Shown here: one piece after another, positions 1 to 18,928 of the stretch
How positions within the stretch are numbered: position 1 is the stretch's first letter
Layout: every line of letters begins with the position of its first letter
Virus record (IMG/VR): IMGVR_UViG_3300034103_001630
Coordinates: 1 to 21,351 of that record
Reading direction: 5' to 3' (one strand)
Origin: a virus
DNA length: 21,351 bases
Notes under the pieces: model-generated
The model's input: only the letters and a program-made list of their open reading frames with translations
The model's database searches: none
What the model was told of the DNA's origin: nothing
Made by a program: the position numbers and the translations under genes

Positions 1-3000
1 AATAGGTCAAAGTTTAGTGCACTAGCAAAAGCAATGCCTAGGACTCCCCATTCTTTAATTGTTAATACTGGCTCTCTAACAATTGACCCATTCATAAAAT
101 AAGAAATACCATTGTATGGAGAATTTGTTGCTAGGCTTGTAGCGTATATTCTTGCTCTAGTTCCTTCTGGATTATCTGCCACCATATAAAACTTTATGGT
201 ATCTGCCTTGTATTTTATTTCAAATATTTCTGTTGGTGTAATTGGGAATGCATCTTGATCGTATCTCATCCAAACCTGGGAAGCACTAATACGATAGTTA
301 TCTGCAATATTTTCATTAATTGGAATAGAGATACCCCGACTTACAAGTGGGTCAAAACTTCCACGTACCTCTACTCCAGATGTTCTATTTAAATAAAGGT
401 ATGGGGTACTTCCTTTATATATACTAAATGGATTTTTAGCCTTATAGTCAAAATATAGTCCAGACCTTGTGTATGGGAACATATCAATACCAAATCTTGT
501 ACCAACTGGATTAAACGAGTTATCATTAAATGCTTGTGATGCAATTTCTAATTTTCTTAGATTAATCGGCTTTCTCAATATGCCACGAATATTAAAGTCA
601 AGGTGGTAGACAAGTGCAAGATCATTAAAGTCAACTGTCTTTGTAGGATAAATCAAAGTATTATCAACAACTTCAAACTTTGTAGATAACCAGTGAGGAT
701 ACTCGTCCATATCAATTATTGCATCCTCTTTTGCTGGAAGAACTGTCGCAAAGTCGGTCTGTGGTGCATTTGCTCCTGATGCTATATACTGAAAAGTAAT
801 ATAACTTCTAATAGATGCACCTTCTGTATCATATTCATAATATTTTTCTGCTCTTTGTGCCATATCCGCATAATCATTCCAACCAGTAAACAAGTTATTG
901 TCTAGTTGTAGATATGTTCTTTGTACTGGGTGAGCGTATTCGTCTTTTAATTCTTGATAGGTCCAAGAACTTGTTGTCTCATACTCTTTTAATTTTGTAG
1001 GAGAAGGGTAGCCAATATTAAATTGCAAGAAGTCAAGGTCGTAGTATGTATTTCCAACATCGTTTGACACATACTTTGCAAAATATGACAATGGCATGTA
1101 GTCTTCCCAATACCCCGCAACGCCTATGTCTAAAAAGTAAGAGCCGTATGCCTGCTGTGGAAGTAGTGTATAACTTGCAGTATGTTCTAGCAAGGCTATT
1201 GCATTTGCTGACTCTTCTGATCCAGTTGCTAAGTAACTATCAACAATCGCTGTTCCATTATCTTCAAAGTGACTTGTTAGTTCTACCGCATTATATGATG
1301 TTGCTAAACCAACAGAATAAATGTTTCCAGTAAACTGGTAAATGCCTTCTGCTTCTCCACCAACATACATCTGCAAACCATTTTGATTACCAAAGAAGGA
1401 AGAAACATTTCCTCCAAATGAAGCAACTAGTGTTTTAATCTCAATTCCTGCTGCAAATTTTTCATTAGAAACAATTATTCCACTGGTGTATATCTCTTCT
1501 TCAACGCCATTAAAAAATAAATAATAGTGAACTTCGTCTAGGTCTTTTCTTATACTAAAGTAGTTTCCAGTAAGCGGATTATATATCTTAAAAAGCGTTT
1601 CTTCTGTTAAAAGATTGTCTGATGAAAATACCCCATATATTGTATGAATTTCATCACTTAAAACATTAAATGCTGGAAAATTAATGTAACAGTTTTGAGA
1701 GTTCCAAGTGTTGTTTGGTCTAAATGTTACAAAGTCATAATCTAATGGGTCCTGTATTAGTTTATTGTCTGCATATAGGTTTTGTATTGTTTTTGTTCCA
1801 AGATTAATGTCTGGCAAAGAATACTGAGGAGTTGTTAAAGAATTAGATGTTGTGGTTAAATTATCAAAAGTGCCTTGATCCCATTGTGCAAAATCTGGAT
1901 AGTTGTAGTTTGATACATAGTCTGCAAATGGATAATCAATAAATGCTGCAGTTCCACCATATGCTGAGTTAATTCCTTCTGGAGAAAGAACTCCTTGTCC
2001 ATAAACCCATCTTCTTTTTGCAACATTTATCGCAACTGAGTATGGATAAACAGCAACACAGTCAATCTCGATTGGTGTTACGTCTGTATAGGCATAGAAG
2101 CCAAGCCAATCTTGATTATCTCCAGATTGATTAACGATGTCTGGTAGGTCTAACGTATCTGTATTAATTGGTAAATTAATTACTTCTTCGCCATTTAATA
2201 AAACTGTTGCATTGTTTCTAATTATTCTAACATGAATAAGCATTGGCCTAAACCATTCACCAACAAAGTGTGATGCAAACTCTGTTCCTATAACAAGTGT
2301 TAAAAATCCTGATTCTACATATATTCCATCTGTAGAAGAAATTGGACCAAAGATTCTTTTTGCTATATAAGCATTTGAATTAATTCTTGTCCAAAACTCT
2401 ACTGTGTATTCTTTGTACTGGCCTGACTTATTTAAAAATCCTTTTCCAGGGACAATTAAAGATGGTTGATTATTTGAGTTGGGTGTCATTCTTGTAATGT
2501 TGCTTGCACCAAATACCATTGGCACTCCGCTATTTCTAGCAAGAAGTGCATTATTGTTTGCTAAATAGTATCCAACTTCTCCTGCAAGTCCATAAGGATC
2601 TGCAGGAATGCCCTGAGTTGAAGGAATTGCAATTGTTGAAGGAATAGTAGTTGGGGTTACTCCAAGAGATGTTGTGTTAAACTCTTCTGACCATTGACCT
2701 GCAGTTATTCCATTAATATAAAAATCGTAATCTCCAGCACTTCCACCAGTTGCATAGGTTAATTTTATGACTACCTGAAAGTCTGTATTTTCATCTACAA
2801 TATCAAAAGTACCAGAAACAAAACTCCAAGATTGAAAAACGGAAGTTGTAAAAGAATCCAACTCTTCAATAGGCAAAGAAGTGGTTGTATCAATATACCT
2901 AAATCCTATTTGAACAGATTGCAAATAAGCACTGTCAGAATAAAAGTATGATCCAATAGAAAAAGATCCAAGATCTGTGTTTAAATCTTGAAAATTAACT

Positions 3001-3294: not shown

Positions 3295-5322
3295 TTAGAG
3301 TTTTATTTCGCACACATCTGTGGTGCAATATGCCTCGCCCATAGCCTCAAGGTTGTCAACACCATCATAAATTGCATCCCAATTAATCTTCTTGATTTGA
3401 CCAAGATGTGCCTCATACTCGTCTTTTGTAATTTGAGTATATGGTTGTTGAGGATAGGTATGATTTCCCATTGGTAAAAATGATACAGCCTTGAGTTGCC
3501 CCTCATACATATGAAGTGCTGGGGCAACATGCTTTGCCTCTGTTTCTTTATCAAATGAAAGGGTAACAGAAACACCATTATCTGACCAATACTTTTGAGC
3601 AGTTGCAGCAAGAGCAATCTTTTCAAACAATGTTACATCCTTTTCAGAACGTGGGTGTCCTGAATGTACTGGGAAATATACTACTTGAGTATTTGCTGAT
3701 ACAAGGTCTTTTTCAATCTTGTACCCCGCTGCTTTAAATAAATGAAGCATTGGATCTGTTTCACCAAAACGAATAGCACGTAGGAAGTATTCTCCTCCTG
3801 GTCCCCAGTGAACTCCAGGTGTTGCACCAGAAAGAATTGAAACAGAGCCTGATGGCTTTACTGTTGTTACACGAATTGATTCACGTACACATAGCCACTC
3901 TGAATACTTGTGGTCATAGTGACGAATCTTTTCATAGCCTTCGTCCATCCACTCACGAGTTGTTGGAAGTCCTCTTTCATCTGCAAAAGATGCAATACCT
4001 GTTAGAGATGTTCCAATACGACGATTACGTTGCATGATACCGTTTGTCTGCTGCCAATGTGTTGGAAGCAGTGTTACAGTCTTTCCATAAAGATATGCAA
4101 ACTTCAATGTCTTGAGGAAGTCTTCCTTGGTTTCATGGCGATTTAGGTGCACTTCTACAAGTGTACAAAGTTCGTATGATTCCAATGGCTGCTCCGCACA
4201 AGGATTGAAGCCCATTACACGGAAGTCTTTTCCGTCTGCTGGATCTTTTAGTCGACCATAATTCCTGGCAACATCAAGCCAAATAAAACCTGGCTCTCCA
4301 TTGTCAACAATTAAATCTACATATTTTTCATAATCCATTCCTACGTTTGCAGAAATAGAATTATTAGACATCCATGCCCAACCTGGGTTTTTTGGATCAA
4401 ATGAGTTTCTTTCAGGAAATGCTTCTGCATTTTTTAGATTAATAAAATCTTGATCTCCTGGTGCACCTAAAGCAAGTGTAGCAGAACGACGTACATTTCC
4501 AGAAACAACACATGTACCAATAAGATTTACAACATCTGTAATTGCACGAGAATCTAACTTCTCTCCTGCTCTACCGCCAATAACTTTACGAATACGTGTA
4601 TGGAGGTCAATCAGTGGCTGTGGACCGCTTGCAACCCCTCCAAAGCCCTTAATAGGGGCACCTAAAGGACGGATCAATGAGTAGTCAAACTCCTGAATGC
4701 TTTGATTTGGGCGTAGAAAGGAATTTAGCAAGAATCTAACAGATTCAACCCATCCCTCACGGGTATCTGGAATCTCATAGGTAGAGGATGGCTCTGTTGG
4801 TGCATAAATTGGATATTCTTTTTCAGCACCGACGGTATCAAATCCAACTCCAATACCCAGCATTAATGCATCCATCACCCATGCAAATAATGCACCAGGA
4901 TCATTACGATCAATGTCACGAGTGGAAACCATTGCACAATTTTGCAATGCTGCAGAGTTCTTCTTTTCCATAGTCATAGGGGTGCCGAATGTCCACATAC
5001 CGCGACCTGGTGGAGTCCACTTAAGATTAAACATACGCTCATAGGCTTCTTGTGCAGACTTCTGAGCCTTGTTATCATTCCAGGGAAGTCTGTTTTCCTT
5101 AGCATGGTTCTTTTGAACTGAGTACATACCCTCAATTACACGCTTACAAACCTCATGCCATCTTTCTTTTGTTCCGTCTTCCTTGATTCTAGAATAGGTG
5201 CGAATGAAAGTGATTTCTCCTAAAGAGTTATTGCCTGCGTCTGTAAAGCCAAAAGGAGGCTCAACCTCCTTGTATTTTGCAATAAAATCATCTAACAAAC
5301 GAAAAGAAAAGATATCTGACAT
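3295..5322 (-). CDS. nrdJ: Adenosylcobalamin-dependent class II ribonucleoside-triphosphate reductase
   Basis: The 675-residue protein reduces ribonucleotides to deoxyribonucleotides by a B12-derived radical, supplying phage DNA synthesis in the cytoplasm. All expected catalytic residues are visible. C129 (NCAMVS) and C386 (ELCTL) match the redox pair. N373-P-C375-A-E377 matches the thiyl-radical cysteine with its Asn and Glu partners. C666 and C671 in the tail (CTTDVC) match the cysteine pair that re-reduces the active site. The layout is that of the monomeric Lactobacillus-type enzyme (about 740 residues), slightly shorter, with no intein and no sign of decay. The ATG at 5322 has a GAGAGG element about 12 nt upstream, a rather long spacing. 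It is the only metabolic gene among tail genes and has its own promoter. No partner thioredoxin is in the window. Confidence 0.95.
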   Translation of the reverse strand: MSDIFSFRLLDDFIAKYKEVEPPFGFTDAGNNSLGEITFIRTYSRIKEDGTKERWHEVCKRVIEGMYSVQKNHAKENRLPWNDNKAQKSAQEAYERMFNLKWTPPGRGMWTFGTPMTMEKKNSAALQNCAMVSTRDIDRNDPGALFAWVMDALMLGIGVGFDTVGAEKEYPIYAPTEPSSTYEIPDTREGWVESVRFLLNSFLRPNQSIQEFDYSLIRPLGAPIKGFGGVASGPQPLIDLHTRIRKVIGGRAGEKLDSRAITDVVNLIGTCVVSGNVRRSATLALGAPGDQDFINLKNAEAFPERNSFDPKNPGWAWMSNNSISANVGMDYEKYVDLIVDNGEPGFIWLDVARNYGRLKDPADGKDFRVMGFNPCAEQPLESYELCTLVEVHLNRHETKEDFLKTLKFAYLYGKTVTLLPTHWQQTNGIMQRNRRIGTSLTGIASFADERGLPTTREWMDEGYEKIRHYDHKYSEWLCVRESIRVTTVKPSGSVSILSGATPGVHWGPGGEYFLRAIRFGETDPMLHLFKAAGYKIEKDLVSANTQVVYFPVHSGHPRSEKDVTLFEKIALAATAQKYWSDNGVSVTLSFDKETEAKHVAPALHMYEGQLKAVSFLPMGNHTYPQQPYTQITKDEYEAHLGQIKKINWDAIYDGVDNLEAMGEAYCTTDVCEIKL

Positions 5323-5474: not shown

Positions 5475-6656
5475 TTAACTAATTACAAGTCCAGACTTAC
5501 CATCTTTAACTTCTCCCCATGTAAGGGCTGGTAAGGCTGCTGATATTGCTGTATTGTTAATCTTGTAAGACTTACCTGTAAGCAAATTCATATGCTCAGA
5601 AGATGTCCAAGCATCTGTTGAATCTACCCAATTAAAAGTTTTATTTGTTGTTCCTAATAGAGTTATACCGCCACCATCTGCACCAACATCTGATGTATTT
5701 CCATATGCAAGAGTAATATTTTTATCTTCTACCTGTAGGTGTGCTGTGTCAATTGTAGTAGTTGTTCCATTTACAGTTAAATCTCCAGTAACTACAAGAT
5801 TGTTTGCTGCTGTTACTGTACCATTTAGAGTAATATTAGATGTTGCTCCAGAAGAAGAGCCAATAGTAATTGCTGTGGTTCCACCTGTTGATCCAGTTCC
5901 AATATCAATTGTTTTGGTTCCAGATGTTGTTGCACCAGTTGCAATTCCAACTATACCAGTTGTTCTTGCTGATCCTCCGCCAATCGTAAGATTTCCTGAT
6001 GTTTGTTGTGTACCAAGCGTAATGTTAGCACTAGTTGATGTGCTTAACAAGTTAACAGATGTGGTAGTATTTGGTCCATTTACTGTTGAAGGTAATACTA
6101 CTGTTCCAGTAAATGTTGGGGAAGCAGCAGGAGCCTTAAGATCAATCTGAGTCTGAATTGCAGAAGTAACGCCATCTACATAGTTTAACTCTGTTGCAGT
6201 TGCTGTAACTGCTACATCCTCATTAATTTTTGGAGATGTGAGTGTCTTATTTGTAAGAGTGTCTGTTGTTGCACGACCAACAAGTGTGTCTGTTGAATTT
6301 GGCAGGCTTAGAGTTATATCTGATGCTGGCTCTGTTACAGTTAGAAGTGTTTCAAAATCATTTGCTGTTGCACCCTCAAAAACAACTGAAAGAGCAGTAA
6401 TAACATTTTTATTTCCATCAAGACCTGCAACACCATCTGCTGCATTCTTTTCTGTAGAAGCAATTGCCCCAATTTCATTTGGTGTTATATCTGCTGCTGC
6501 TTGATAATAATCTAGTTCAGACCAGAGAGACTCGCCATCTCCAATTTTGAAAGAAGTAAGTGTTGAGTTATACCCAATTTCTCCTTCATTAAGGATTGGA
6601 TCTGCATCATTCCATTCAGAGGTCGTACCTCTACGCATTTGAATTCTAACAGACAC
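5475..6656 (-). CDS. Tail fibre with Mtd-like N-terminal domain
   Basis: This 393-residue protein starts at GTG (6656) with AGGAGGT-type ribosome pairing (GGAGGT, 5 nt spacer). Residues 1-50 (RIQMRRGT..EW..ADPILNEGEIGY..........KIGDG) match the N-terminal domain of the Bordetella phage major tropism determinant family, which fixes fibres to the baseplate. Near residue 90 is a VFEGA...E.LLTVTEP unit, followed by LTNKTLTSP, ELNYVDGVTSAIQTQ and Ser/Thr/Gly-rich repeats of a fibre shaft. The C-terminal part (VEDKNITLAYGN, DGGGITLLGTTNKTFNWVD, DAWTSSEHMNL) is a common ending of cyanophage-like fibres. The middle is nearly identical in protein to part of the fibre at 7122-9419. The C-terminus is not a C-type lectin, so it is not a diversity-generating target of the Mtd kind. 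Receptor binding or shaft function is inferred. Confidence 0.8.
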   Translation of the reverse strand: MSVRIQMRRGTTSEWNDADPILNEGEIGYNSTLTSFKIGDGESLWSELDYYQAAADITPNEIGAIASTEKNAADGVAGLDGNKNVITALSVVFEGATANDFETLLTVTEPASDITLSLPNSTDTLVGRATTDTLTNKTLTSPKINEDVAVTATATELNYVDGVTSAIQTQIDLKAPAASPTFTGTVVLPSTVNGPNTTTSVNLLSTSTSANITLGTQQTSGNLTIGGGSARTTGIVGIATGATTSGTKTIDIGTGSTGGTTAITIGSSSGATSNITLNGTVTAANNLVVTGDLTVNGTTTTIDTAHLQVEDKNITLAYGNTSDVGADGGGITLLGTTNKTFNWVDSTDAWTSSEHMNLLTGKSYKINNTAISAALPALTWGEVKDGKSGLVIS

Positions 6657-10464: not shown

Positions 10465-11003
10465 TATGATAATCCTGCTTTCATTGATCCCCACGTACCA
10501 TTGCCTTTAAAAGATCCTACAAGAATAACACCAGTAGTGCTATTTGATTTTGCAACAATTCCAACTACTCCAGAATTTGTTGTAGCGGTAATTGGCTGAG
10601 TTGCTGTAAGACCACCGCTTGATCCAACATATAGCCTATCTCCAGCGGCATAAGAAGAAGTATTAACTCCAGTAAATACACCTGATATAACAACAACTCC
10701 ATCATTACCATTTCCAATTGCAGATTGTGCTAATCCAATTACTGGAAATGTAGCAATGCTTGATGCTTGTGATTTTGCTACTCTTGGTTTGCTGGTACCA
10801 AAACCTGATATGTATACAGGATCACCTTTGGCAATAGAATCACCACTATTATTTACAACTTCTAATGTATGAAATGGCAATCCAATTGTAGGTAAAATAA
10901 CCTCAATACGCTCAGCAAGTGATTGAATATCCCCTGCTACGTTTACAGGGTCTGAGTTAACTGGATACGGTAAATCATATACCGTTGTTTCGCCTGATGC
11001 CAT
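10464..11003 (-). CDS. Phage surface/tail protein with repeated beta core
   Basis: The 179-residue protein opens with a helical stretch (ASGETTVYDLPYPVNSDPVNVAGDIQSLAERIE) often used to anchor fibre proteins. It then carries a beta-rich core (EVVNNSGDSIAKGDPVYISG, IATFPVIGLAQSAI, GVFTGVNTSSYAAGDRLYVG, GIVAKSNSTTGVILVG). This core is widespread in cyanophage-like and T4-like virion proteins of fibre or decoration type. The ATG at 11003 lies 9 bases after a TGGTATAAT box and has no clear Shine-Dalgarno site, so its transcript is nearly leaderless. It opens a three-gene operon (11003 to 9887) with TAATG or 2-base junctions. The exact location in the particle cannot be told from sequence. Confidence 0.65.
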   Translation of the reverse strand: MASGETTVYDLPYPVNSDPVNVAGDIQSLAERIEVILPTIGLPFHTLEVVNNSGDSIAKGDPVYISGFGTSKPRVAKSQASSIATFPVIGLAQSAIGNGNDGVVVISGVFTGVNTSSYAAGDRLYVGSSGGLTATQPITATTNSGVVGIVAKSNSTTGVILVGSFKGNGTWGSMKAGLS

Positions 11004-11762: not shown

Positions 11763-11978
11763 TTATACAACTGGATCATTTTCTGGATCTAGTGTTGGTT
11801 CTGGCATTGGTGGATTCTCAAACACTCCATCAGCATATCCAAGACCAATTATTGCTGGATTTGCATCAGTGTATTCTACACATGTTAAACCAGTTACCTG
11901 TTCAGCAATTTCTTTTGATTCAGCAACAATTGTATTTTCTACCTTGTTGTTTTCGTCTAATACCGCAAAATTTCCCAT
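11763..11978 (-). CDS. Small fibre-accessory protein (NN-x-V-x-N type)
   Basis: The 71-residue protein opens with FAVLDENNKVENTIVAES, a signature of small phage proteins coded beside tail fibres. I regard these as fibre-assembly or accessory proteins, but their action is not proven. The same type occurs at 17254-17583 (YAVIKNNIVSNIIVFD). This copy ends in an acidic proline-rich tail (NPPMPEPTLDPENDPVV) and lacks the PPQPFLSWIKNEDLKVWEAP module of the other. The ATG at 11978 lies one base after the preceding stop, with AGGAGAA overlapping the end of that gene, so translation is coupled. It is the last gene before the terminator. Confidence 0.65.
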   Translation of the reverse strand: MGNFAVLDENNKVENTIVAESKEIAEQVTGLTCVEYTDANPAIIGLGYADGVFENPPMPEPTLDPENDPVV

Positions 11979-11979
11979 G

Positions 11980-12162
11980 TTATTCTCCTATCTTGTAAAA
12001 TTTTTGACCATCCCATTTGCCGTGTAAATGGGCTGGACTATTTTCTAATGTCATTTCTACTAAATGTGTATACCCTTTGTCTTCAGCATCTTTTATCATG
12101 TTGTCATAAGGTATTTCAATATAGTAGTCTTTTACTATTCCGTTTTGTATTGCAGCCCACAT
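11980..12162 (-). CDS. Small fibre-accessory protein
   Basis: The ATG at 12162 is chosen because it follows the adhesin stop by one base (TAA A ATG) and gives 60 residues. A longer open frame would run back into the adhesin gene. The opening, WAAIQNGIVKDYYIEIPYD, is a variant of the 'AVIxNNxVxN' start of the next gene. The rest (YTHLVEMTLENSPAHLHGKW, then DGQKFYKIGE) ends in a short 'WDG.KFYK' module common beside phage fibres. Its function is unknown. Its position between a polyglycine adhesin and another accessory gene suggests a role in adhesin folding or assembly. Confidence 0.6.
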   Translation of the reverse strand: MWAAIQNGIVKDYYIEIPYDNMIKDAEDKGYTHLVEMTLENSPAHLHGKWDGQKFYKIGE

Positions 12163-12163
12163 T

Positions 12164-13051
12164 TTAGTAGTATACCAAAACTTGTCCTGTAGCACCTGCT
12201 CCGCCTGCGCCACCAGTTACAGGACCGCCAGAGTTGTTGTTTGATGTGATTCTTGCTCCACCACCGCCGCCACCGCCACCTGTAGTTCCTGCACCGCCTG
12301 CTGTTCCAGTACCAGCACCAAAACTTGCTGCACCACCTGCGCCGCCACCTGGAAGTCCTGCTGCACCGCCTGCACCATTGCTGCCAGCAGGGAAATTACC
12401 GTTTATGCCTTGACTTCCTCCGCCGCCGCCGCCGCCGCCTGCTTTTGAAGTAGCGTTTCCAATAGCACCGCCGCCGCCGCCGCTGTTACCCATATCTGCA
12501 CCCGCAGCACCTGCACTACTTGTTCCGCCTGCACCGCCTGCACCGCCTCCAGGTGAACCTCCTTGTGATGCGCCACCACCGCCACCACCGCCACCTGAGC
12601 CGCCAGAACCACCTGCACCGCCTGCACCGCCGTTTGTGCTGCCAGCAGAGCCACCACCGCCACCTGCAGTATTTAAGTAAGCAAAAATAGTAGTTCCACC
12701 AGCGTTGCCAGCATTTCCACCAGAAGCGCCTGCAGTATTTAATGTTGGTGGTGTGCCAGGAGTGCCTCCAGCACCAATGGTAACTGCTTGCGTAGTAGAG
12801 GAAAGAAGTAGTTGTCCAAATGAAGTTCCGCCGCCTGCGCCGCCACCGCCACCACCTGTACCTGCATCATTAGTAGTCCATCGCACACTACCTGGACCAC
12901 CTGCACCGCCGCCGCCTGATACAACAGCATAAACAACTACAGTTCCAGAATCAAGTGTAATTGTTGAAGAACTATTTACTGTATGTTTTAATGTAGGTTG
13001 AATTGCAGAAAAGGATGCACCAGATGCTGCTGGGATAATTGCAATAGCCAT
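12164..13051 (-). CDS. Glycine-rich adhesin (no FN3 domains)
   Basis: The 295-residue start (MAIAIIPAASG) at ATG 13051 lies one base after the previous stop, with a GGAG site inside the end of that gene. A further 18 upstream codons are open but unlikely. Residues 20-45 (KHTVNSSSTITLDSGTVVVY) match the opening strand of phage 'glycine-rich domain' proteins. A long region of repeated Gly runs follows, broken by short strands (FGQLLLSSTTQAVTIGAGG), and the protein ends with the family's usual GATGQVLVYY. Such proteins may pack as polyglycine II helices, as in the T-even-type gp38 adhesin of Salmonella phage S16; this is analogy. Gly codons include long GGC runs. It is a likely receptor-binding tip of the third fibre cassette. 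Confidence 0.75.
   Translation of the reverse strand: MAIAIIPAASGASFSAIQPTLKHTVNSSSTITLDSGTVVVYAVVSGGGGAGGPGSVRWTTNDAGTGGGGGGAGGGTSFGQLLLSSTTQAVTIGAGGTPGTPPTLNTAGASGGNAGNAGGTTIFAYLNTAGGGGGSAGSTNGGAGGAGGSGGSGGGGGGGGASQGGSPGGGAGGAGGTSSAGAAGADMGNSGGGGGAIGNATSKAGGGGGGGGSQGINGNFPAGSNGAGGAAGLPGGGAGGAASFGAGTGTAGGAGTTGGGGGGGGARITSNNNSGGPVTGGAGGAGATGQVLVYY
12420..12439. repeat. (CCG)n trinucleotide run in adhesin gene
   Basis: An uninterrupted 20-base CCG/GGC run codes for consecutive glycines. A second run of 16 bases lies at 12468-12483. Being in multiples of three, slippage here would change glycine number without shifting the frame. Confidence 0.7.
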
Positions 13052-13052
13052 A

Positions 13053-13355
13053 TTAAGATATCTCCACTCCAGAAATATGAAAATTAACAGTAGTTGCAGA
13101 AGCAAGACCTGTAATTGTTTGTGTTGTAGTAAGTACTTGTTTTAGATCAATATATACCGTCGCATTTGCAGCGATTGCTGTTGTTGTATGCAATGCAACT
13201 GAATTAAGTGCAAGTGTAAATGTTTGTGCAGATGCAGATGTGTTTGTTACTGCAATATTTGACACTACGGTTGTTGTTGATGAGGGTACTGTATATAGTG
13301 TTGTGCTTGATGTGGCTGCCGCTGTTCTAGCGAGTACTTTTGTTAATGTAGCCAT
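13053..13355 (-). CDS. Small beta-structured virion protein
   Basis: The 100-residue protein (MATLTKVLARTAAATSSTTL...) is rich in Thr, Ser, Ala and Val. It has a strand pattern (TVVSNIAVTNTSASAQTFTLAL, then TVYIDLKQVL) seen in small phage proteins often placed between fibre genes. In similar proteins the opening 'ATSSTTLYTVPSSTTTVVSNIAVTN' forms a sandwich domain. The ATG at 13355 has GAAAGGTAG about 9 bases upstream. It lies between the fibre at 13374 and the glycine-rich adhesin, so it may connect the two. The function is inferred only from position. Confidence 0.65.
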   Translation of the reverse strand: MATLTKVLARTAAATSSTTLYTVPSSTTTVVSNIAVTNTSASAQTFTLALNSVALHTTTAIAANATVYIDLKQVLTTTQTITGLASATTVNFHISGVEIS

Positions 13356-13373
13356 TAGTTACTACCTTTCATG

Positions 13374-14144
13374 TTAGAGTGCTCCCATAAGAAGGAGTGT
13401 TAATTCATCTATGATACTTCCTGGTGCATTTGTTCCAGATAATACTATATCTCCAGAAACTGTTAGGCTTGTTAGTGTACCAGTTGAAGTAATAGATGAA
13501 AGGTTTCCTGTTGTTATTACTGTACCGTCAACATTTGGCAAAGTAATTGTTCTATCTGCTGTAGGATCAACTACTGTAAGAGTAGTTTCATTAGCATCTG
13601 CAGTAGAACCTTCAAAAACAATACTTGAATCATTTAGTGTTAAACCTGTTACAGTTGGTGTTGTAATAACAGGACTTGTTAAAGTTTTATTAGTCATTGT
13701 GAGAGTATTACTTGTTGTTGCTACTACTGTTGTATCAACAGAAAGAGTAACTGTTCCTGATGTACCGCCGCCTGAAAGACCAGTTCCAGCAGTTACACCA
13801 TTAATGTCTCCATCATTTGCAACCCAAGCGGTACCATTATAAAATTGAATTTGATTAAGTGGTGATCCACCAGCATCTTGTCTTACAAAAACAAGAGTAC
13901 CTGCAACTGGTGCTGTCAAAGCAGCATCACGGGCAGCAGGGTTTAGAAAATTATTAAAACCATCTCTTAAAATAACAGCAGCATCTGTAGTTACTGTATT
14001 TAAAAATGTTTGTGCGCCAGCCCATTCGTATCCTGCGGCGGTATCAATCTTGGCACCAACGGCATACCAAACACCATCAGTAGAAGTTGCTCCAGCCTGG
14101 AACATGTAGGTTGGTTTGCCGCTATTATCAAAGGTAATTGCCAT
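13374..14144 (-). CDS. Tail fibre protein of cassette C
   Basis: The 256-residue protein begins MAITFDNSGKPTYMFQAG and has a short beta module near residues 75-112 (GTLVFVRQDAGGSPLNQIQFYNGTAWV). A common fibre turn follows (GDINGVTAGTGLSGGGTSGTVTL), then MTNKTLTSP and a SSIVFEGSTADANETTLTV unit near residue 176. That unit is nearly identical in protein to units in the 7122-9419 fibre. The ATG at 14144 has no ribosome site. A TGCTATAAT box ends 7 bases before it, so a leaderless mRNA is predicted. It opens the cassette that ends with the adhesin and two accessory genes. It is a fibre shaft or adhesin carrier by similarity. Confidence 0.75.
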   Translation of the reverse strand: MAITFDNSGKPTYMFQAGATSTDGVWYAVGAKIDTAAGYEWAGAQTFLNTVTTDAAVILRDGFNNFLNPAARDAALTAPVAGTLVFVRQDAGGSPLNQIQFYNGTAWVANDGDINGVTAGTGLSGGGTSGTVTLSVDTTVVATTSNTLTMTNKTLTSPVITTPTVTGLTLNDSSIVFEGSTADANETTLTVVDPTADRTITLPNVDGTVITTGNLSSITSTGTLTSLTVSGDIVLSGTNAPGSIIDELTLLLMGAL

Positions 14145-14151
14145 AGTTTAA

Positions 14152-14160
14152 ATTATAGCA
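14152..14160 (-). promoter_or_regulatory. Extended -10 promoter TGCTATAAT, predicted leaderless start
   Basis: TGCTATAAT on the minus strand ends 7 bases before the ATG at 14144 (spacer TTAAACT). This is the same geometry as the promoter at 9881-9889, and there is no Shine-Dalgarno site, so translation from a leaderless mRNA is expected. Confidence 0.55.
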
Positions 14161-14186
14161 GTTATTTCTGCTATCTCCTCATAGAA

Positions 14187-14195
14187 ATTATACCA
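14187..14195 (-). promoter_or_regulatory. Second, upstream -10 promoter TGGTATAAT
   Basis: A TGGTATAAT box on the minus strand lies 35 bases upstream of the one at 14152-14160, in the same short gap. It would give a longer transcript for the same fibre gene, with a leader that holds a GAGGAGA motif but no gene at a usable distance. This is the only clear tandem pair in the window. Confidence 0.4.
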
Positions 14196-14200
14196 CAAGA

Positions 14201-14950
14201 CTACTTATATTCTTTTAGTTGCCTATACTGTGTTTTATAGGAATCAAAGAATTTGGTACGTAGTTTGTCAGTTATTTTGACCTGTTCGTTAAAATCTTCT
14301 ATAGTGCCCATTTCCATTTGCCAAGCATCTCTCTTGAATGGAATGACCTGAGCCATCGGGGTACCTGCAGGAATTAACCCCTCAAACTTATCTGCCTCAT
14401 TTAATACAAATGGAAAATTAACGGCAGCCTTATATTTATCTGTATCTACAACACCAGGAAGTATGGTGAATACAGATTCTCTATGTAATGGTTGTACAAA
14501 TAGTGTTGAATACCCTGGAGGAGTTGCAATTGCCCAGGGATTAATCCATTTTGGATAAGAAAATGTATGAGCACCTCTGCTAGGGTGGTCTGGAGCCTGC
14601 TCTACTGGGTGAAACTGAATTGGACCAAGTGTAGGCCATTCGTAAAATGGTTGTGTTGGAAATTCTGACATATCTGTATTTTCATCTAGAATAGTTCCTT
14701 CTGGAACTTGTGGTACTTGCTTTACCCATACATCTACATAGGTAGTTAAAATATATCCACCTGTTATTGCATCAAAGATGGGCATACAGCGTTTTGCTGT
14801 TGCGCTTGTTCCTCCTTGACCAGTTGGTTTTTTCTCACCACTAATATAAGATTCTAGATTTTTATACCAATCAGGAATAATTTTATCTGCTGGTTTTGGA
14901 CGGTATTCTTCAGGAACGCCTATTGTATCTGTAAATTTAATAACTGTCAT
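14201..14950 (-). CDS. Conserved phage protein of unknown function
   Basis: The 249-residue protein belongs to a family I recall from many aquatic phage genomes without assigned function; a DUF6065-type relationship is possible but unsure. Its features are an N-terminal EEYRPKPADKIIPDWYKNLE, a TAKRCMPIFDAITGGYILTT segment, and H-rich and P-rich middle motifs (FHPVEQAPDHPSRG). The conserved core reads INPWAIATPPGYSTLFVQPLHR, then GVVDTDKYKAAVNFPFVL and IPAGTPMAQVIPFKR. It is a soluble, mixed alpha/beta protein with no transmembrane or signal segment. It is not fibre-like in composition. It stands alone between two adhesin cassettes, with GGGGGAA before its ATG. It may modify or assemble virion parts, or act in the host; no claim can be made. 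Confidence 0.7.
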   Translation of the reverse strand: MTVIKFTDTIGVPEEYRPKPADKIIPDWYKNLESYISGEKKPTGQGGTSATAKRCMPIFDAITGGYILTTYVDVWVKQVPQVPEGTILDENTDMSEFPTQPFYEWPTLGPIQFHPVEQAPDHPSRGAHTFSYPKWINPWAIATPPGYSTLFVQPLHRESVFTILPGVVDTDKYKAAVNFPFVLNEADKFEGLIPAGTPMAQVIPFKRDAWQMEMGTIEDFNEQVKITDKLRTKFFDSYKTQYRQLKEYK

Positions 14951-14997
14951 TTTAATTCCCCCGAATTAGTAATCTCTCCTGCTTAAAAGTATACACT

Positions 14998-15005
14998 ATT
15001 ATACC
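14998..15005 (-). promoter_or_regulatory. Possible -10 promoter (GGTATAAT) before the unknown-function gene
   Basis: GGTATAAT on the minus strand resembles the recurrent boxes but has CGG in place of TGN. A TATACT hexamer lies 8 bases downstream of it as an alternative. The leader would be about 40 nt. Confidence 0.35.
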
Positions 15006-15031
15006 GATTTATCCAAAATCAAATACGTTCT

Positions 15032-15057
15032 TAATGCATTATTTTATAAATGCATTA
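15032..15057. repeat. Inverted repeat of AATGCATT in AT-rich gap
   Basis: Two copies of the self-complementary octamer AATGCATT (15033-15040 and 15049-15056) flank ATTTTATA and can form a 9-bp stem. It lies 20 bases past the stop of the adhesin gene. No U-run follows on the minus strand, so it is a weak terminator candidate or a protein site. Confidence 0.4.
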
Positions 15058-15076
15058 TATTTTATCAATAAATTAA

Positions 15077-16486
15077 TTATCCAGTTTTTCTATAAAGAAT
15101 AATTTGTCCAGCAGCACCTACGCCGCCGCCGCCGCCAGGATTTGATGCTCCTCCGCCGCCGCCGCCGCCGCCGCCTGCTCCTGGAGCATTTCCAGCAGCA
15201 CCTGGAGAACCAGTTGGATTTCCGCCCTGTCCTCCAGCGCCTCCGCTTGTTGTTCCACCAGCACCGCCTGCTCCAAAAGAGTTATAGAAGTTTTGAAAAG
15301 CGCCATTTCCTCCACCGCCACCCGCTCCTCCACGTGTATTCATTGATACTGTTCCAAGAACGGCTAGGTTCATTGAAAGATTTGCTGCATTTCCTCCTGC
15401 GTTGCCATTAACAATTGTTCCAAATTGTTGTCCAGGTCCTCCGTTTCCTCCAGAGGGACCAGTAGAGGCACTGCCGCCTACGGCATTTCCGCTTGCGGTT
15501 CCACCCTCCCTACCACTTGTAGAACCTCCGCCTGACCCACCTCTACCACCAATTACTGTAGCAATTGCAGTTCCTGCAACGGATAGTGAAGATGTTCCAC
15601 CAAAATTTGTATTATTACCAGCAAAAGTATTTCCGCCTGCACCAACTACAAGTGCAACGACTTGTCCAGGAGATACTGGATGCTCACTAAATGTAAAGGC
15701 ACCTCCTCCACCGCCGCCACCTGCTCCTGCTCCAGAACCATACGGACCAGCGCCACCTGATGCAATTCCACCACCACCGCCACCTGAAATAACAAATGCT
15801 GCAATTGCTGTTGTTTCTGCAGGTATTGTGTAATTGCTAGTTGTATTATATGTACCAACTAATGTATAAGCAGGTAGAACTGGGGTTACAGAATTAGATC
15901 CAGCAGATGCTGTTGAAGTTCCATTAGCGTTGGTTGCTGTAACTGTAAATGTATAAGCAGTACCATTGCTTAATCCTGATACTGTAATTGGGCTTGATCC
16001 TGTTCCTGTAAATGATCCAGGAGATGAGGTTGCTGTAAATGTAGAAATTGCCTTACCGCCTGTAGCACCTGCTGTATAAGTAACAGTAGCGGAAGCATTT
16101 CCACGAGTTGCAGTTCCAATAGTAGGGGCTTGTGGAACAGTTGTTGCTGTAATGCTTGAAGAAGCAGAACTTGCATCAGATGTTCCAACTGCATTAGTAG
16201 CAGTAACAGTAAAAGTATAAGAAGTATTTGACTGCAACCCTGTAACTTGTACAGAAGTAGAAGATGTTGTTGCTGTAAATGATCCTGGAGAAGATGTTAC
16301 AGTATATGAAGTAATTGGTGCACCATTTGAAGAAGGTGCTGACCAAGTTACATCTGCTGCACCATTATTAAATGCACGACCTGTTCCTACATCGGTAGCA
16401 GAAACTGATGTTGGTACAGATGGCTTTCCAGCACCCTGAAAACCTAAACCTCTTACACCAACTTGTCTACCACCAATAATAGGCAT
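15077..16486 (-). CDS. FN3-FN3-polyglycine adhesin of cassette B
   Basis: The 469-residue protein has two fibronectin type III domains. The first covers residues of about 22-116 (GAADVTWSAPSSNGAPITSY, then YTFTVTATNAVGTS) and the second about 118-204 (AISTFTATSSPGS, YTFTVTATNANGTS). Residues 205-469 form a glycine-rich domain. It opens with YTIPAETTAIAAFVISGGG, has sheet segments (FTFSEHPVSPGQVVALVVGAGG) and ends GAAGQIILYRKTG. FN3 domains often space phage adhesins, and glycine-rich ends may bind the receptor. The ATG at 16486 has AAGGAG overlapping the end of the upstream fibre gene (TTTGCATAAGGAG). It is a clear paralogue of 17573-18928. Long GGC codon runs lie near the 3' end. Confidence 0.85.
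   Translation of the reverse strand: MPIIGGRQVGVRGLGFQGAGKPSVPTSVSATDVGTGRAFNNGAADVTWSAPSSNGAPITSYTVTSSPGSFTATTSSTSVQVTGLQSNTSYTFTVTATNAVGTSDASSASSSITATTVPQAPTIGTATRGNASATVTYTAGATGGKAISTFTATSSPGSFTGTGSSPITVSGLSNGTAYTFTVTATNANGTSTASAGSNSVTPVLPAYTLVGTYNTTSNYTIPAETTAIAAFVISGGGGGGIASGGAGPYGSGAGAGGGGGGGAFTFSEHPVSPGQVVALVVGAGGNTFAGNNTNFGGTSSLSVAGTAIATVIGGRGGSGGGSTSGREGGTASGNAVGGSASTGPSGGNGGPGQQFGTIVNGNAGGNAANLSMNLAVLGTVSMNTRGGAGGGGGNGAFQNFYNSFGAGGAGGTTSGGAGGQGGNPTGSPGAAGNAPGAGGGGGGGGGASNPGGGGGVGAAGQIILYRKTG
15153..15175. repeat. (CCG)n trinucleotide run in adhesin gene
   Basis: A 23-base CCG/GGC run, with another of 16 bases at 15121-15136, encodes glycine tracts close to the end of the adhesin. 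Slippage would keep the frame. These are the most GC-rich points in an otherwise AT-rich window. Confidence 0.7.
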
Positions 16487-16496
16487 TTAAAACTCC

Positions 16497-17222
16497 TTAT
16501 GCAAATCTTGTTTGTGATCCAAAGGCTGTAAAAGTAGCCGAACCTGTCTTTACAATTGTAAATGAATAAATATCAATACTATTTGCATTACCAGCAGCAG
16601 GTGCTACACCATTTTGCCATTTTGGAGTAACTGCGTTTCCATCAATCTGAAATGCTGTTTGATAAAATGCAGGAGAACCTTGTGTTGCAAACATTACTAC
16701 TGTAATTGAATCATTAGTTGTTAAAATTGAATCTAGAGATGTTGATGAACTACCACGAACATTTAATGTCCAGTTACCAGTAGCAGATGCTGTTGAATAA
16801 TATACCCCAGCAGTTAGCACGTCTAGGTTTACCGTTCCTGTTGCAGCAGTTGCTGTAACTGTGAATCGCTCTTCTGGAGATAACATAACGTTACCTGATA
16901 ACAATTTATTTGTTAGTGTTTGAGCAGTACTTAAGTCTACAGTTGTTGCAGTATCAATTGCAATTGTAGGAATTGGACCAGTACCGTTAGTTACTGTGAT
17001 TCCTGTTCCTGAACTCACGGCGGTAATATCACCAGACTCAGTTGCATTAATCCAATTTGTACCATTATAAACTAATGCCTGATTTGTAGTAGGGGATGTA
17101 ATAACAACATCACTTAATGCGTCCAGAGTTGTTGTTGCAATACCCTGCAATGGGAACCAGGTGTCAGTGTCTAGGTCGTAGACAAACCCTGGTTTTGGAT
17201 CAGTAGTGTTAATAGTAGCCAT
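16497..17222 (-). CDS. Tail fibre protein of cassette B
   Basis: The 241-residue protein starts at ATG 17222 with a GAGGAGA ribosome site. The N-terminus (TTDPKPGFVYDLDTDTWFPLQG) and following ALSDVVITSPTTNQALVYNGTNW are typical of cyanophage-like fibres. GDITAVSSGTGITVTNGTG and LSTAQTLTNKLLSG follow. The C-terminal 125 residues (VTATAATGTVNLDVLTAGVYY, GNWTLNVRGSSSTSLDS, WQNGVAPAAGNANSIDIYSF) match the end of the 18941-20107 fibre position by position. Both genes end in 'FA' followed by TAAGG and an FN3-polyglycine adhesin, so the two are duplicated cassettes. It probably forms the fibre to which the downstream adhesin binds. Confidence 0.8.
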   Translation of the reverse strand: MATINTTDPKPGFVYDLDTDTWFPLQGIATTTLDALSDVVITSPTTNQALVYNGTNWINATESGDITAVSSGTGITVTNGTGPIPTIAIDTATTVDLSTAQTLTNKLLSGNVMLSPEERFTVTATAATGTVNLDVLTAGVYYSTASATGNWTLNVRGSSSTSLDSILTTNDSITVVMFATQGSPAFYQTAFQIDGNAVTPKWQNGVAPAAGNANSIDIYSFTIVKTGSATFTAFGSQTRFA

Positions 17223-17240
17223 TTGAATCTCCTCTGGTTT

Positions 17241-17249
17241 ATTATATCA
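17241..17249 (-). promoter_or_regulatory. Extended -10 promoter TGATATAAT before cassette B
   Basis: TGATATAAT on the minus strand sits between the accessory gene stop at 17254 and the fibre start at 17222. Transcription from about 17234 would leave a short leader with the AGAGGAGA ribosome site. Confidence 0.55.
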
Positions 17250-17253
17250 GATA

Positions 17254-17583
17254 TTACTCTGATGCCTGGATTTCTTCCCAGTTTAAAACATCTTCGTTCC
17301 ATTTATAGTGTTTAGGGTTTTCTGGGTCAAAATCAGGGTATGAAACTGGTGCTTCCCAAACTTTAAGATCTTCATTTTTAATCCAAGATAGGAATGGTTG
17401 CGGTGGGAAAAAGGTAAAACCATCATATGTGCTTCCAACAACAACTAATTCATCAAGTTCTACAATGCTATCTGCTGAGTATTCGTTTTTAAAAAAATCA
17501 ACAAGTTCTTGTGGTGGATTATCAAAAACAATAATATTTGATACAATATTGTTTTTTATAACTGCATATTCCTTATTTGACAT
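17254..17583 (-). CDS. Fibre-accessory protein (NN-x-V-x-N type)
   Basis: The ATG at 17583 (MSNKEYAVIKNN) is preferred; a TTG two codons upstream is also open. The 109-residue protein overlaps the end of the adhesin gene by 11 bases, so translation is coupled. It opens with YAVIKNNIVSNIIVFDNPP and has a middle VVVGSTYDGFTFFPPQPFLSW. It ends in the family's module of aromatic and Pro residues (WIKNEDLKVWEAPVSYPDFD, then YKWNEDVLNWEEI). Similar proteins are common beside tail fibres of aquatic phages, where an assembly or capping role is presumed but not shown. Its shorter relative lies at 11763-11978. Confidence 0.7.
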   Translation of the reverse strand: MSNKEYAVIKNNIVSNIIVFDNPPQELVDFFKNEYSADSIVELDELVVVGSTYDGFTFFPPQPFLSWIKNEDLKVWEAPVSYPDFDPENPKHYKWNEDVLNWEEIQASE

Positions 17584-18928
17584 ATACAACTACCCTTCCG
17601 CTTCCTCCAGCACCCTGTGTTCCGCCTACTCCGTTTACGTTTGATGAATTTCTTTGATCATAATATCCTGCTTGACCGCCACCTCCACCGCCACCGCCAC
17701 CAGTACCACTGCTTCCAGAACTGGCAGCGTTTCCATTTGCTGGAGGGTTTATATTTGCTCCACCGTTTCCACCAGCACCTCCACCAGCAGATCCTCCAGA
17801 ACCTCCGCTCTGTCCATTGCTATTCTGAAAAAATCCAGAATTGGTTCTGCTTCCGTAGGCACCAGATCCACCACCACCGCCGCCACCACCAGACTGTATG
17901 GTTGTTAGTCCTGTAGCATTTAAAGTAAGATTTCCCCCAGATAGACCGCCTCTAGGTGCAAATACATCTCCACCTGCTCCTCCTTGCGCTGTTACTCCGC
18001 CAGCAACATTTGTTGAGCCATTAGATAGAGTAGAGTAGTTGTTGCTGCCTCCATTTGCTGTAGCATAACTACCAAAAGAGGAAGATCCATTTTGTCCACC
18101 AACACTAACCGAAACAGTTGCTCCTGGGCTTAGACTTAAATCTTGAAATGCTGCTCCACCTCCACCAGAAGATCCTCTTCTCCAAGAATTTCCAGCCGCT
18201 CCGCCGCCACCTCCGCCAATCACATATGCAGCAACTTTGCTCTTACCAGCAGGCATTGTAAATGTACCAGAAGAATTAAATGTTGTAGATAGAGTATATG
18301 GAAGTGCTGTCGTTACAGAGTTAGATGCAGCAGAAGCAGTAGATGTTCCGTTAGCATTAGTTGCTGTAACGGTATAAGTTCTTGATCCATCTGATGTTTC
18401 TGTAACTGTAACTGAACCTGATGAACTTCCTGTTGCACCACTTGTTGATGTTGCTGTAAATGTAGATACTGCTTTACCACCAGTTGCACCTGCTGTAAAT
18501 CCAACAGAAACTGTTCCTGTAGTACCACTTGCAGTTCCAATTGTAGGTGCTTGTGGAACGGTAGTTGCAGTGGCACTTGATACAGTAGATGCATCTGAAG
18601 TTCCAGCAGCATTTATAGCAGAAACCCTATAATAATAAATTTGTGCACTTGTTAAAGATGTATCAGAATATGTTGTTGCCCCTGATGCTGTATTTGCTAC
18701 TAAAGTAGAGTATGAAGATCCATCAGTAGATCTTTCAATAAAATACCCTGAAATTGTTGCACCGTTATTTCCAGGTGCCGTCCAAGATAAATCGATTCGT
18801 CCATTATTAAATGCTCTTGATGTTCCAAAATCTGTAGCAGTTAATCCTGTTACTTGATTTGGTTTTGCAGCACCAGCGTAGCCAAAGGCTCTATTTGATC
18901 CTGCTCCACGAGTTCCTAGAAATGGCAC
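17573..18928 (-). CDS. FN3-FN3-polyglycine adhesin of cassette A
   Basis: The 451-residue protein starts at GTG (18928), seven bases after a GGGGG ribosome site that begins at the stop of the fibre gene (GCATAAGGGGG). FN3 domain 1 covers residues of about 24-125 (GRIDLSWTAPGNNGATISGY, then YYYRVSAINAAGTS). FN3 domain 2 covers 126-208 (AVSTFTATSTSG, YTVTATNANGTS). Residues 209-451 are the glycine-rich domain (GTFTMPAGKSKVAAYVIGGG, QDLSLSPGATVSVSVGG, and end GGSGRVVVYVK). It matches the cassette B adhesin through both FN3 domains and the domain order, but its glycine tail differs in length and in spacer residues. It probably forms an alternative receptor-binding tip. Confidence 0.85.
   Translation of the reverse strand: MPFLGTRGAGSNRAFGYAGAAKPNQVTGLTATDFGTSRAFNNGRIDLSWTAPGNNGATISGYFIERSTDGSSYSTLVANTASGATTYSDTSLTSAQIYYYRVSAINAAGTSDASTVSSATATTVPQAPTIGTASGTTGTVSVGFTAGATGGKAVSTFTATSTSGATGSSSGSVTVTETSDGSRTYTVTATNANGTSTASAASNSVTTALPYTLSTTFNSSGTFTMPAGKSKVAAYVIGGGGGGAAGNSWRRGSSGGGGAAFQDLSLSPGATVSVSVGGQNGSSSFGSYATANGGSNNYSTLSNGSTNVAGGVTAQGGAGGDVFAPRGGLSGGNLTLNATGLTTIQSGGGGGGGGSGAYGSRTNSGFFQNSNGQSGGSGGSAGGGAGGNGGANINPPANGNAASSGSSGTGGGGGGGGGQAGYYDQRNSSNVNGVGGTQGAGGSGRVVVYVK

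Follow-up and report, generated by a model that had tools for sequence, protein, structure and literature searches.

The adhesin gp38 of Salmonella phage S16 (PDB 6f45) is described as a set of polyglycine helices with hypervariable turns tied to host range, together with a beta-helix base and a helical attachment domain (PMC6851490). In cyanophage Pam3, the fiber gp24 (PDB 7ypx and 7yfw) has a TNF-like domain and a glycine-rich tip with 12 Gly motifs, which form a lattice whose dihedral angles its authors place near those of a beta-sheet; its stem is reported to be conserved and its end hypervariable, a chaperone (gp25) binds the junction, and the paper already points to the ALK structure 7LIR (PMC9608196). 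The domains of mycobacteriophage Bxb1 gp33 are described as polyproline-II-type glycine bundles resembling S16 (PMC13243192). In the hafunaviruses of haloarchaea, host range is reported to go with a locus comprising a glycine-rich tail fiber gene and a small gene (PMC8651126). In uncultured phages, the genes for host recognition change fastest, which makes them difficult to locate.

We analyzed a stretch of 21,351 nucleotides from an uncultured virus (IMGVR_UViG_3300034103_001630; hereafter, the window), in which three polyglycine proteins had been proposed as possible polyglycine-II receptor tips. All three ORFs are present on the minus strand, and the quoted opening and closing strands were found in their sequences. 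Gene A (17573..18928, minus strand; 451 aa; GTG start at 18928) comprises an anchor (residues 1 to 25), two FN3-type domains, and a PF21722 tip (residues 206 to 451; 17576..18313, minus strand) of canonical topology, i.e., opening strands, a Gly lattice, and the closing strand GRVVVYVK. Gene B (15077..16486, minus strand; 469 aa; ATG start at 16486) has the same parts, with a tip (residues 201 to 469; 15080..15886, minus strand) whose topology was judged canonical by sequence (alignment A1); good ribosome sites precede both starts. Gene C (12164..13051, minus strand; 295 aa) consists of a short N-terminal piece and a tip, with no FN3 domain, and most likely starts at the ATG at 13051, which has GGAG upstream, rather than at the TTG of 13105. 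Pfam detected a single FN3 domain in A, the tandem being visible in the predicted model (3lpw_B; Z score of 16.0 over 20..209), and the best 60 of 73 matches in a PDB sequence search with gene B were mainly FN3 proteins.

Gene A is followed by a small partner ORF (17254..17583, minus strand; 109 aa; phrog_7759/14370) that overlaps its end by 11 nt, and gene B has none behind it. Directly behind C, starting one base past its stop codon, is a 60-aa ORF (11980..12162, minus strand) that follows the start-motif rule of partner ORFs and scores only 8.2 bits (E value of 0.049) against the partner profile. Next comes a 71-aa partner ORF of a third class (11763..11978, minus strand; 33.9 bits), one gene removed from C. 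The gene preceding C (13053..13355, minus strand) shares 34% identity with gp21 of Pontimonas phage phiPsal1, a gene likewise located ahead of a tip-partner pair. Between A and B lies a phrog_5906 gene (16497..17222, minus strand) that is 91 to 98% identical across ten contigs and served as the yardstick of relatedness. PDB sequence searches with gene C gave no useful match, and a search of viral contigs with its peptides returned four stretches that fit a pattern, none of them a relative. The tblastn searches against phages with B and C gave no match (nor did a LamG-like protein at 3-3266); isolates were instead reached via the partner ORF. The A/B profile had no match in Actinomycetia phage DSL-LC01, the best ribonucleotide reductase relative, which by itself shows little.

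Genes A (25.4 bits) and B (25.8 bits) passed the cutoff of PF21722 Gly_rich_2 (24.3 bits), to which Bxb1 gp33 scores 45.4 bits. Gene C remained under the cutoff (17.6 bits), and 6 of the 13 rows in the C-type alignment, C included, matched the family at an E value of ≤0.01. The other Bxb1 protein scanned, gp29, did not match. AlphaFold2 models were generated for A and C from small alignments (24 and 13 rows, respectively). The best solved matches of these predicted models are Bxb1 tail-tip chains and the Pam3 fiber, rather than S16 gp38. The A tip model (residues 213 to 451) matched 9d93_Qb (Z score, 16.6; rmsd, 2.7 Å; 180 aligned residues; 30% identity) and the C model matched 9d93_Qa (Z score, 18.9; 3.5 Å; 203 aligned residues; 29% identity); we read the Q chains of 9d93 as gp33 from their 267-aa length and the chain numbering. 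Matches to the Pam3 fiber had Z scores of 14.8 to 15.8 (7ypx_A, 15.4 for the A tip and 15.8 for C). The C model also matched ALK 9g5i_B (Z score, 9.5); among the matches listed, ALK appears for C only, those for A being taken up by FN3 domains. As modeled, the tips of A and C have a TNF-like base running on into a Gly-rich lattice, as in Pam3 gp24, and this lattice would presumably be of the polyglycine type. When the tip alignments were compared with gp33 by profile, the match was weak (probabilities of 0.3% for C-type and 18.6% for A/B-type tips), and the link to Bxb1 therefore rests on PF21722 and the fold.

The original prediction of polyglycine-II tips was thus largely right about a folded Gly scaffold with variable inserts, and its model, S16 gp38, was not supported. 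The GP38 profile (PF05268) had no match at an E value of ≤10 in the window, in a search whose composition filters may hide weak matches, and the best matches of the predicted tips have a TNF-like base, not the gp38 beta-helix. The S16 structure 6f45 was absent among the fold matches listed for the A and C models, an absence that excludes nothing. The ALK_LTK_GRD profile (PF12810) likewise had no match at an E value of ≤10 under filters that may hide weak ones.

Gly accounts for 34%, 38%, and 43% of the A, B, and C tips, with longest runs of 9, 9, and 8 residues, respectively. Runs of that length recurred in 12, 39, and 316 of 2,000 shuffles of the same tips, which makes the runs unusually long for A and B and not for C. 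Gly periodicity was higher at lag 3 (z of 4.0, 3.3, and 4.9 for A, B, and C) than at lag 2 (1.3, 1.6, and 1.0), which fits the expectation for a three-residue helix; the signal at lag 1 was also raised (4.0, 3.0, and 3.3) because of the Gly runs. Among 24 aligned A/B-type tips, 24 columns were ≥90% Gly, against a mean of 8.6 and a maximum of 15 when the interiors were shuffled in 20 control alignments; the 13 aligned C-type tips had 34 such columns (shuffled mean, 10.2; maximum, 15). Conservation extends to the positions of Gly, which form a framework, and not only to composition. Simple repeats, considered as a source of variation by slippage, are only short in the tips.

The Gly framework columns and the lag-3 periodicity argue against the view that the Gly segments are mere spacers, disordered or of low complexity, and that the AlphaFold2 models are artifacts of a training set that may include related structures such as S16 gp38. 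The small input alignments would be in keeping with that view, as would the C model (pLDDT, 70.3; pTM, 0.75), in which 40 of 295 residues have a pLDDT of <50, including residues 140 to 162 within the Gly-rich part. We regard it as very improbable given that the A model is ordered (pLDDT, 86.5), as the predicted scaffold had implied, with 24 of 26 ten-residue tip blocks at 74 to 97, and that Bxb1 gp33 belongs to PF21722.

Comparison of ten related contigs (45 pairs) revealed that whole tips are replaced while their flanks stay conserved. The median identity was 94% for the neighboring gene and 78 and 79% for the anchors, compared with 43% each for the A tip, the B tip, and whole C, close to the levels obtained with shuffled partners (38, 37, and 35%, respectively). 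The tips are also swapped independently of each other: in contigs 3300042350_001757 and 3300033816_000174, gene C is 98% identical, the B tips are 52% identical, and the A and B tips are opposite in topology. In 17 of 31 close tip pairs, the first 60 residues share <40% identity (for some, the start may be wrongly called or truncated), as in L056_5665/L098_7737, where the tips are 61% identical and the starts 20%. The pair L055_5795/L071_4234 was discarded as a case of tips behind different anchors, its starts being 50% identical. Across the 31 pairs (60 to 95% alike over the final 230 residues), identity was 63% outside the neighborhoods of Gly runs and 81% inside; the inserts are more variable than the framework, as anticipated. 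Specificity loops that vary by point change would be just one part of the picture, since whole tips are replaced.

Tip replacement of this kind, together with the FN3 domains of A and B, could also reflect environmental diversification of a decoration, i.e., the Gly-rich proteins may coat the capsid or tail tube and be generally sticky (to mucus, particles, or glycans) instead of binding receptors at the tail tip. The FN3 part of gene A matches the Hoc-like head decoration family phrog_10993 (3.7e-6), a cement-like protein (10467-11003) lies within the same cassette, and in the related 39-kb contig 3300033816_000174 the cassette precedes the genes for the portal, head protease, and head protein; these observations count against attachment tips. 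We nevertheless consider a decoration unlikely, because the top fold matches of the predicted tips are tail-tip and tail-fiber chains, the window neighbors match tail fiber and baseplate families, and the 298-aa PF21722 ORF of phiPsal1 and its 126-aa partner sit a few genes past the tape measure and putative tail fiber genes.

The order of tip elements also varies. Of 239 distinct Gly-rich ORFs, 46 carry the opening-strand motif at the extreme C terminus, and another 46 carry it ahead of the first Gly run. This change of order fits circular permutation (46/239 tips), of which we found no report for this domain in the titles and abstract openings among the matches listed.

The small ORF of phrog_14370/7759, which has no assigned function, is located behind 128 of 233 Gly-rich tips examined (the other 105 have no partner start motif behind them), with an overlap or a gap of <31 nt in 117 of the 128. 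Conversely, when a scan was seeded with the partner, 59 of the 63 usable loci had a Gly-rich gene upstream of it. The partner class matches the tip class (26/2 against 0/42), in a table that leaves out 58 of the 128 pairs and uses class regular expressions devised after examples had been seen; within genes A and B alone, the table is 8/0 against 0/15, plus one pair of no class. Among VP-type tips with a partner, 15 of 43 have one of neither main class. No report of the pairing was found in the titles and abstract openings among the matches listed.

Lying directly downstream of the tip and covarying with it, the partner has a chaperone-like gene order, to which gene B is an exception; the missing partner of B and the marginal match behind C both weigh against this reading. 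The ORF may instead be a virion component (a tip cap or coreceptor) or a recombination passenger. In that direction, the partner follows a non-Gly gene in 4 of the 63 loci, and in two of eight isolates the gene ahead of it encodes a 2OG-Fe(II) oxygenase or is named ferrochelatase; in the other six isolates, in keeping with the tip pairing, it stands behind a Gly-rich tip. Moreover, Pfam and PDB profile searches revealed no sequence similarity to Tfa families, Pam3 gp25, or solved chaperones: among 23 aligned partner ORFs (60 to 130 aa), no Pfam family matched more than two (best E value, 0.02), and the best PDB match was the molecule CG4930 (E value, 0.051). The tight spacing and the class match argue the other way, and a mere passenger would have no need to match the tip class across contigs; a role other than chaperone thus appears to us the somewhat weaker option.

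A second neighbor, the phrog_7084 protein (14201..14950, minus strand), regularly adjoins Gly-rich tips in this group; a distant halovirus relative matches DUF6065. Its tip linkage is strong in this group, and it was dropped as a general partner because in halovirus HSTV-2 the phrog_7084 gene adjoins thymidylate synthase and DNA polymerase genes.

Our preferred reading, which we consider probable, is that A, B, and C encode attachment tips that can be exchanged for one another and are mounted on two or three adaptor types. We infer a position on the tail, where the N-terminal anchor, which is conserved and in A and B is joined by two FN3 spacers, would fix each protein to the virion. The C-terminal tip would be a TNF-like jelly roll whose loops extend as parallel polyglycine-type helices, and the non-Gly turns at its far end may contact the host. 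Evolution swaps the tip whole and separately at each adaptor, so that many tip combinations can arise within one lineage. The class-matched small ORF directly behind many of the tips may encode a cognate folding chaperone or a transient cap, like gp25 for Pam3 gp24. A broader version, to which we give about an even chance, is that these are plug-in cassettes of aquatic tailed phages, in which a tip of at least three structural classes, permutants included, travels with its class-matched cognate chaperone behind many anchors and is shuffled independently among several sockets per virion. If so, the partner ORF would be a genomic flag for host-recognition tips. As a cognate chaperone, it would point to the recognition tip of pelagiphages, roseophages, and actinobacteria phages, and also in isolates where the tip was missed or otherwise named (phiPsal1 and Greip). 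Natural circular permutation, together with the swapping of tips among many anchors, would reveal how tips are exchanged and why a single fold, which the ALK receptor also has, can accommodate such extensive change.

Among known systems, the ALK/LTK TG domain (PDB 9g5i, 7nx3, 7lir, and 7nx1; Z scores of 7.1 to 9.5 with the C model) is a glycine-rich ligand-binding ectodomain of animal receptor kinases, and its PF12810 profile is without a match in the window. The glycine-rich adhesins of Hafunavirus are likened to the window tips by their published description. S16 gp38 differs in its profile and in its base, for which the best matches of the predicted tips have a TNF-like one. Bxb1 gp33 has PF21722 in common with the window tips and matches the A and C models in fold; unlike A and B, it has no FN3 match, and it has no partner-like neighbor among gp31, gp32, and gp34. 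Pam3 gp25 has a trimerizing helical C-terminal domain (residues 64 to 162), whereas the aligned partner ORFs of the window type carry a different C-terminal motif. Pam3 has a single such fiber with a helical shaft, whereas the window has three genes, whose anchors are short or carry FN3 domains.

In the window, a 21,351-base virus record, the genes considered lie nearly all on the minus strand, the lysozyme-like gene being on the plus strand. Gene A (17573-18928), gene B (15077-16486), and gene C (12164-13051), all on the minus strand and with start codons refined by means of ribosome sites, end in a glycine-rich C-terminal domain (tip). The N-terminal part (anchor) of A and B contains FN3-type domains (by Pfam, one stretch in A, where a tandem is visible in the model, and two in B), and C has a short N-terminal piece only. 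The surrounding genes are related to tail fibre, baseplate, decoration, and unknown virion families. This virion-protein cassette also includes a B12-dependent ribonucleotide reductase gene (3298-5322), whose product is closest to those of actinobacterial phages (61.8% to Actinomycetia phage DSL-LC01; Mycobacterium phages account for 686 of the 1197 matching records), suggesting that an actinobacterium is the likely host. At 5475-6656, the cassette encodes a protein with a Major tropism determinant N-terminal domain (PF18454), and at 14201-14950 a phrog_7084 protein, a halovirus relative of which matches DUF6065. Relatives of phrog_7084 have a glycine-rich ORF within 2 kb in 68 of 76 loci, the nearest one on the same strand; in the remaining 8 loci, which have no such ORF, the upstream sequence is shorter than 1.4 kb. 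In contig 3300033816_000174 (L240 4033-4587), a sulfotransferase-like ORF, recognized by eye, separates gene B from the phrog_7084 gene.

The original prediction took the three proteins for possible polyglycine-II receptor tips resembling the S16 gp38 adhesin. The glycine pattern is real: the tips contain 34-43% glycine, glycines recur with a lag of three (z = 4.0, 3.3, and 4.9 for A, B, and C), and relatives share fixed glycine columns well above a shuffled-interior control. The glycine runs of A and B exceed the usual shuffled length (equaled in 12 and 39 of 2000 shuffles, respectively); in C, shuffles equal the longest run too often (316 of 2000) for it to be remarkable. A and B passed the Pfam cut-off for PF21722, C fell below it, and 6 of the 13 rows of the alignment of C relatives, C included, matched this family at E <= 0.01. 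AlphaFold2 models were built from 24 rows of A and B relatives for A (pLDDT 86.5, pTM 0.73; in the tip weak at about residues 361-380, where non-glycine residues abound) and from the 13 C-type rows for C (pLDDT 70.3, pTM 0.75). By VIA-align, the A tip (residues 213-451) matched the Bxb1 tail tip chain 9d93_Qb (Z 16.6, 180 residues aligned, 2.7 A, 30% identity) and the Pam3 fibre 7ypx_A (Z 15.4, 169 aligned, 2.5 A). C matched 9d93_Qa (Z 18.9, 203 aligned, 3.5 A), 7ypx_A (Z 15.8, 199 aligned, 5.0 A), and ALK/LTK chains (Z 7.1-9.5), and Foldseek agreed for C (3.4e-6 and 1.8e-4). Bxb1 gp33 is itself a PF21722 protein (45.4 bits), and comparison of its profile with the A/B-type and C-type alignments was weak. 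From these matches of predicted models, we infer the polyglycine geometry of the tips, and the predicted reading as polyglycine tips is supported in part. The fold is common, since 222 predicted viral proteins match C at E <= 0.001, tail fibre names being among the matches listed. Among the BFVD matches listed, giant viruses (Fadolivirus, moumouviruses, and Powai lake megavirus) have the same predicted fold in proteins named glycine-rich or collagen-like. Several C-type relatives (L163, L166, L165, and L021) carry 14-residue repeats ahead of the tip (AVAAAVPTNSSIAN), absent from the window copy, that perhaps form a shaft.

Tips are replaced whole. From a collection of viral contigs with a common gene order, ten, including the window, were compared in all 45 pairs. 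Between A and B lies a gene (phrog_5906) that is 91-98% identical (median 94%), and the FN3-containing anchors have medians of 78% for A and 79% for B. For the tips of A, the tips of B, and whole C, the medians are 43% each versus 38, 37, and 35% for shuffled partners, or 23-25% versus 18-19% once Gly-Gly pairs are removed. The best cross-slot tip match (61%, between A of one contig and B of another) exceeds all same-slot tip matches (at most 55% for A and 52% for B). In 3300042350_001757 and 3300033816_000174, C is 98% identical, the B tips are 52% identical, and the A tips are at most 49% identical. The variation is not limited to tips, because the small ORF behind A, with a median of 47% over 28 pairs, and the gene before C, with one of 66% over 45 pairs, vary too. 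Outside this group, 31 pairs of glycine-rich ORFs are 60-95% alike over the last 230 residues; for 17 of these pairs, identity over the first 60 residues is below 40%, some starts being cut by contig ends or perhaps miscalled (e.g., L056_5665/L098_7737, tip 61% and start 20%; L035_462/L047_2977, 67% and 20%). Identity within the 31 pairs is 81% in the neighbourhoods of glycine runs and 63% elsewhere.

Tips also differ in the position of one strand. A motif of the type YRFTGTGTVTF ends 33 of 239 distinct glycine-rich ORFs, and a profile of this type matched 59 of the other 206 (versus 3 of 206 shuffled), ahead of the first glycine run in 46 and at the extreme C-terminus in 13. By order in the sequence, one strand would thus open one tip form and close the other, which is what circular permutation predicts if the two termini of the jelly roll are adjacent. 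Among A-type proteins, 4 of 13 are permuted, and among B-type proteins, 2 of 16. The remaining ORFs of the 206, including the three of the window, did not match the profile; the window's tips are assigned to the unpermuted form because they open with a VP-type strand.

Directly behind many tips lies a small ORF (partner ORF) of 50-170 aa with a common start motif, found behind 128 of the 233 glycine-rich ORFs with enough downstream sequence and overlapping the tip gene or starting within 30 nt in 117 of the 128. Chosen partner ORFs matched phrog_14370 (21 of 23) and phrog_7759 (19 of 23), both without known function. Among pairs classified on both sides, the partner class YAFIK stands behind VP-type tips in 26 of 28 and the class AH.A behind permuted tips or those with a YYRTF-type opening strand in 42 of 42, counts that include contig kinship and rest on class rules made after examples had been seen, with 58 of the 128 pairs unclassified on one side or the other. 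A further 15 VP-type tips have partners of neither class. In the A and B genes alone, which share anchors and neighbours, the match is 8 of 8 for YAFIK and 15 of 15 for AH.A, and one further VP-type tip is followed by a partner outside both classes. Where loci had been collected by tip genes, a glycine-rich ORF stands ahead of 127 of 135 partner-like ORFs. To lessen this bias, viral contigs were scanned with one partner protein alone; the best 80 of 513 candidates, minus 4 without upstream sequence and 13 duplicates, left 63 loci, at least 5 of the 80 contigs being also in the first sample. A glycine-rich ORF lies directly upstream in 59 of these 63. In these loci, where 98 of 533 genes are glycine-rich, such a gene precedes 63 of 70 partners versus 21 of 313 other neighbours. 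A scan with a YAFIK partner returned two loci only, both already known.

The AH.A partner matches 39 of 50,697 phage records, including cyanophages, pelagiphages, roseophages, Methylophilales phages, Pontimonas phage phiPsal1, and others. In 6 of 8 isolates inspected (HTVC025P, CRP-143, CRP-207, Melnitz-3, Greip, and phiPsal1), a glycine-rich ORF directly precedes the partner; S-SSM5 and DSL-LC04 have none in this position. Three of four isolate tips scanned passed the PF21722 cut-off, Melnitz-3 falling just short (22.0 bits). In Pelagibacter phage Greip (MT375525.1, L334 start), a permuted glycine-rich tip forms the end of a gene annotated as DNA stabilization protein and is directly followed by a partner ORF. 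The best evidence that the tips may serve in the tail is the gene order of phiPsal1, whose host is the actinobacterium Pontimonas salivibrio. Its 298-aa tip ORF (L330 3105-4001; PF21722, 84.6 bits) is missing from the record (MG835450.1), which lists two Val-rich frames inside it (gp22 and gp23). The ORF follows the tape measure and putative tail fibre genes at a distance of a few genes, and its preceding gene shares 34% identity with the one that precedes C in the window. Against a tail role counts a related 39-kb contig, in which the cassette lies upstream of portal, protease, and head genes.

Most likely, the anchor would fix each protein, the FN3 domains of A and B would hold the tip out, and the host would be contacted by the distal turns of a polyglycine bundle that has its root in a TNF-like base. 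Such a bundle would likely need help to fold, for which the partner ORF, being right behind the tip and class-matched to it, is a natural candidate, as Pam3 gp25 is for gp24. This function remains inferred, since the partner ORF has no detectable sequence similarity to Pam3 gp25 or Tfa, gene B has no partner ORF, and none was found among three neighbour genes tested for Bxb1 gp33.

The tip domain is of a known kind, as the literature on several systems indicates. The S16 gp38 adhesin is described as a beta-helix bearing ten polyglycine-II helices, with host range related to variable turns (PMC6851490), and a likeness to S16 has been noted for domains of Bxb1 gp33 and gp29 (PMC13243192). Polyglycine-rich domains have been mentioned for minor tail proteins of mycobacteriophages (preprint, PMC13252515), and in haloarchaeal hafunaviruses host range is associated with a locus that pairs a glycine-rich adhesin gene with a small gene (PMC8651126). 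The dihedral angles of the glycine motifs of Pam3 gp24 are placed near beta-sheet by its authors (PMC9608196). As far as literature searches tell, three things are new: the exchange of whole tips independently at several sockets, tips that are natural circular permutants, and a class-matched partner ORF. For the window's tips, the predicted model, S16 gp38, gives way to Pam3 gp24 and Bxb1 gp33.
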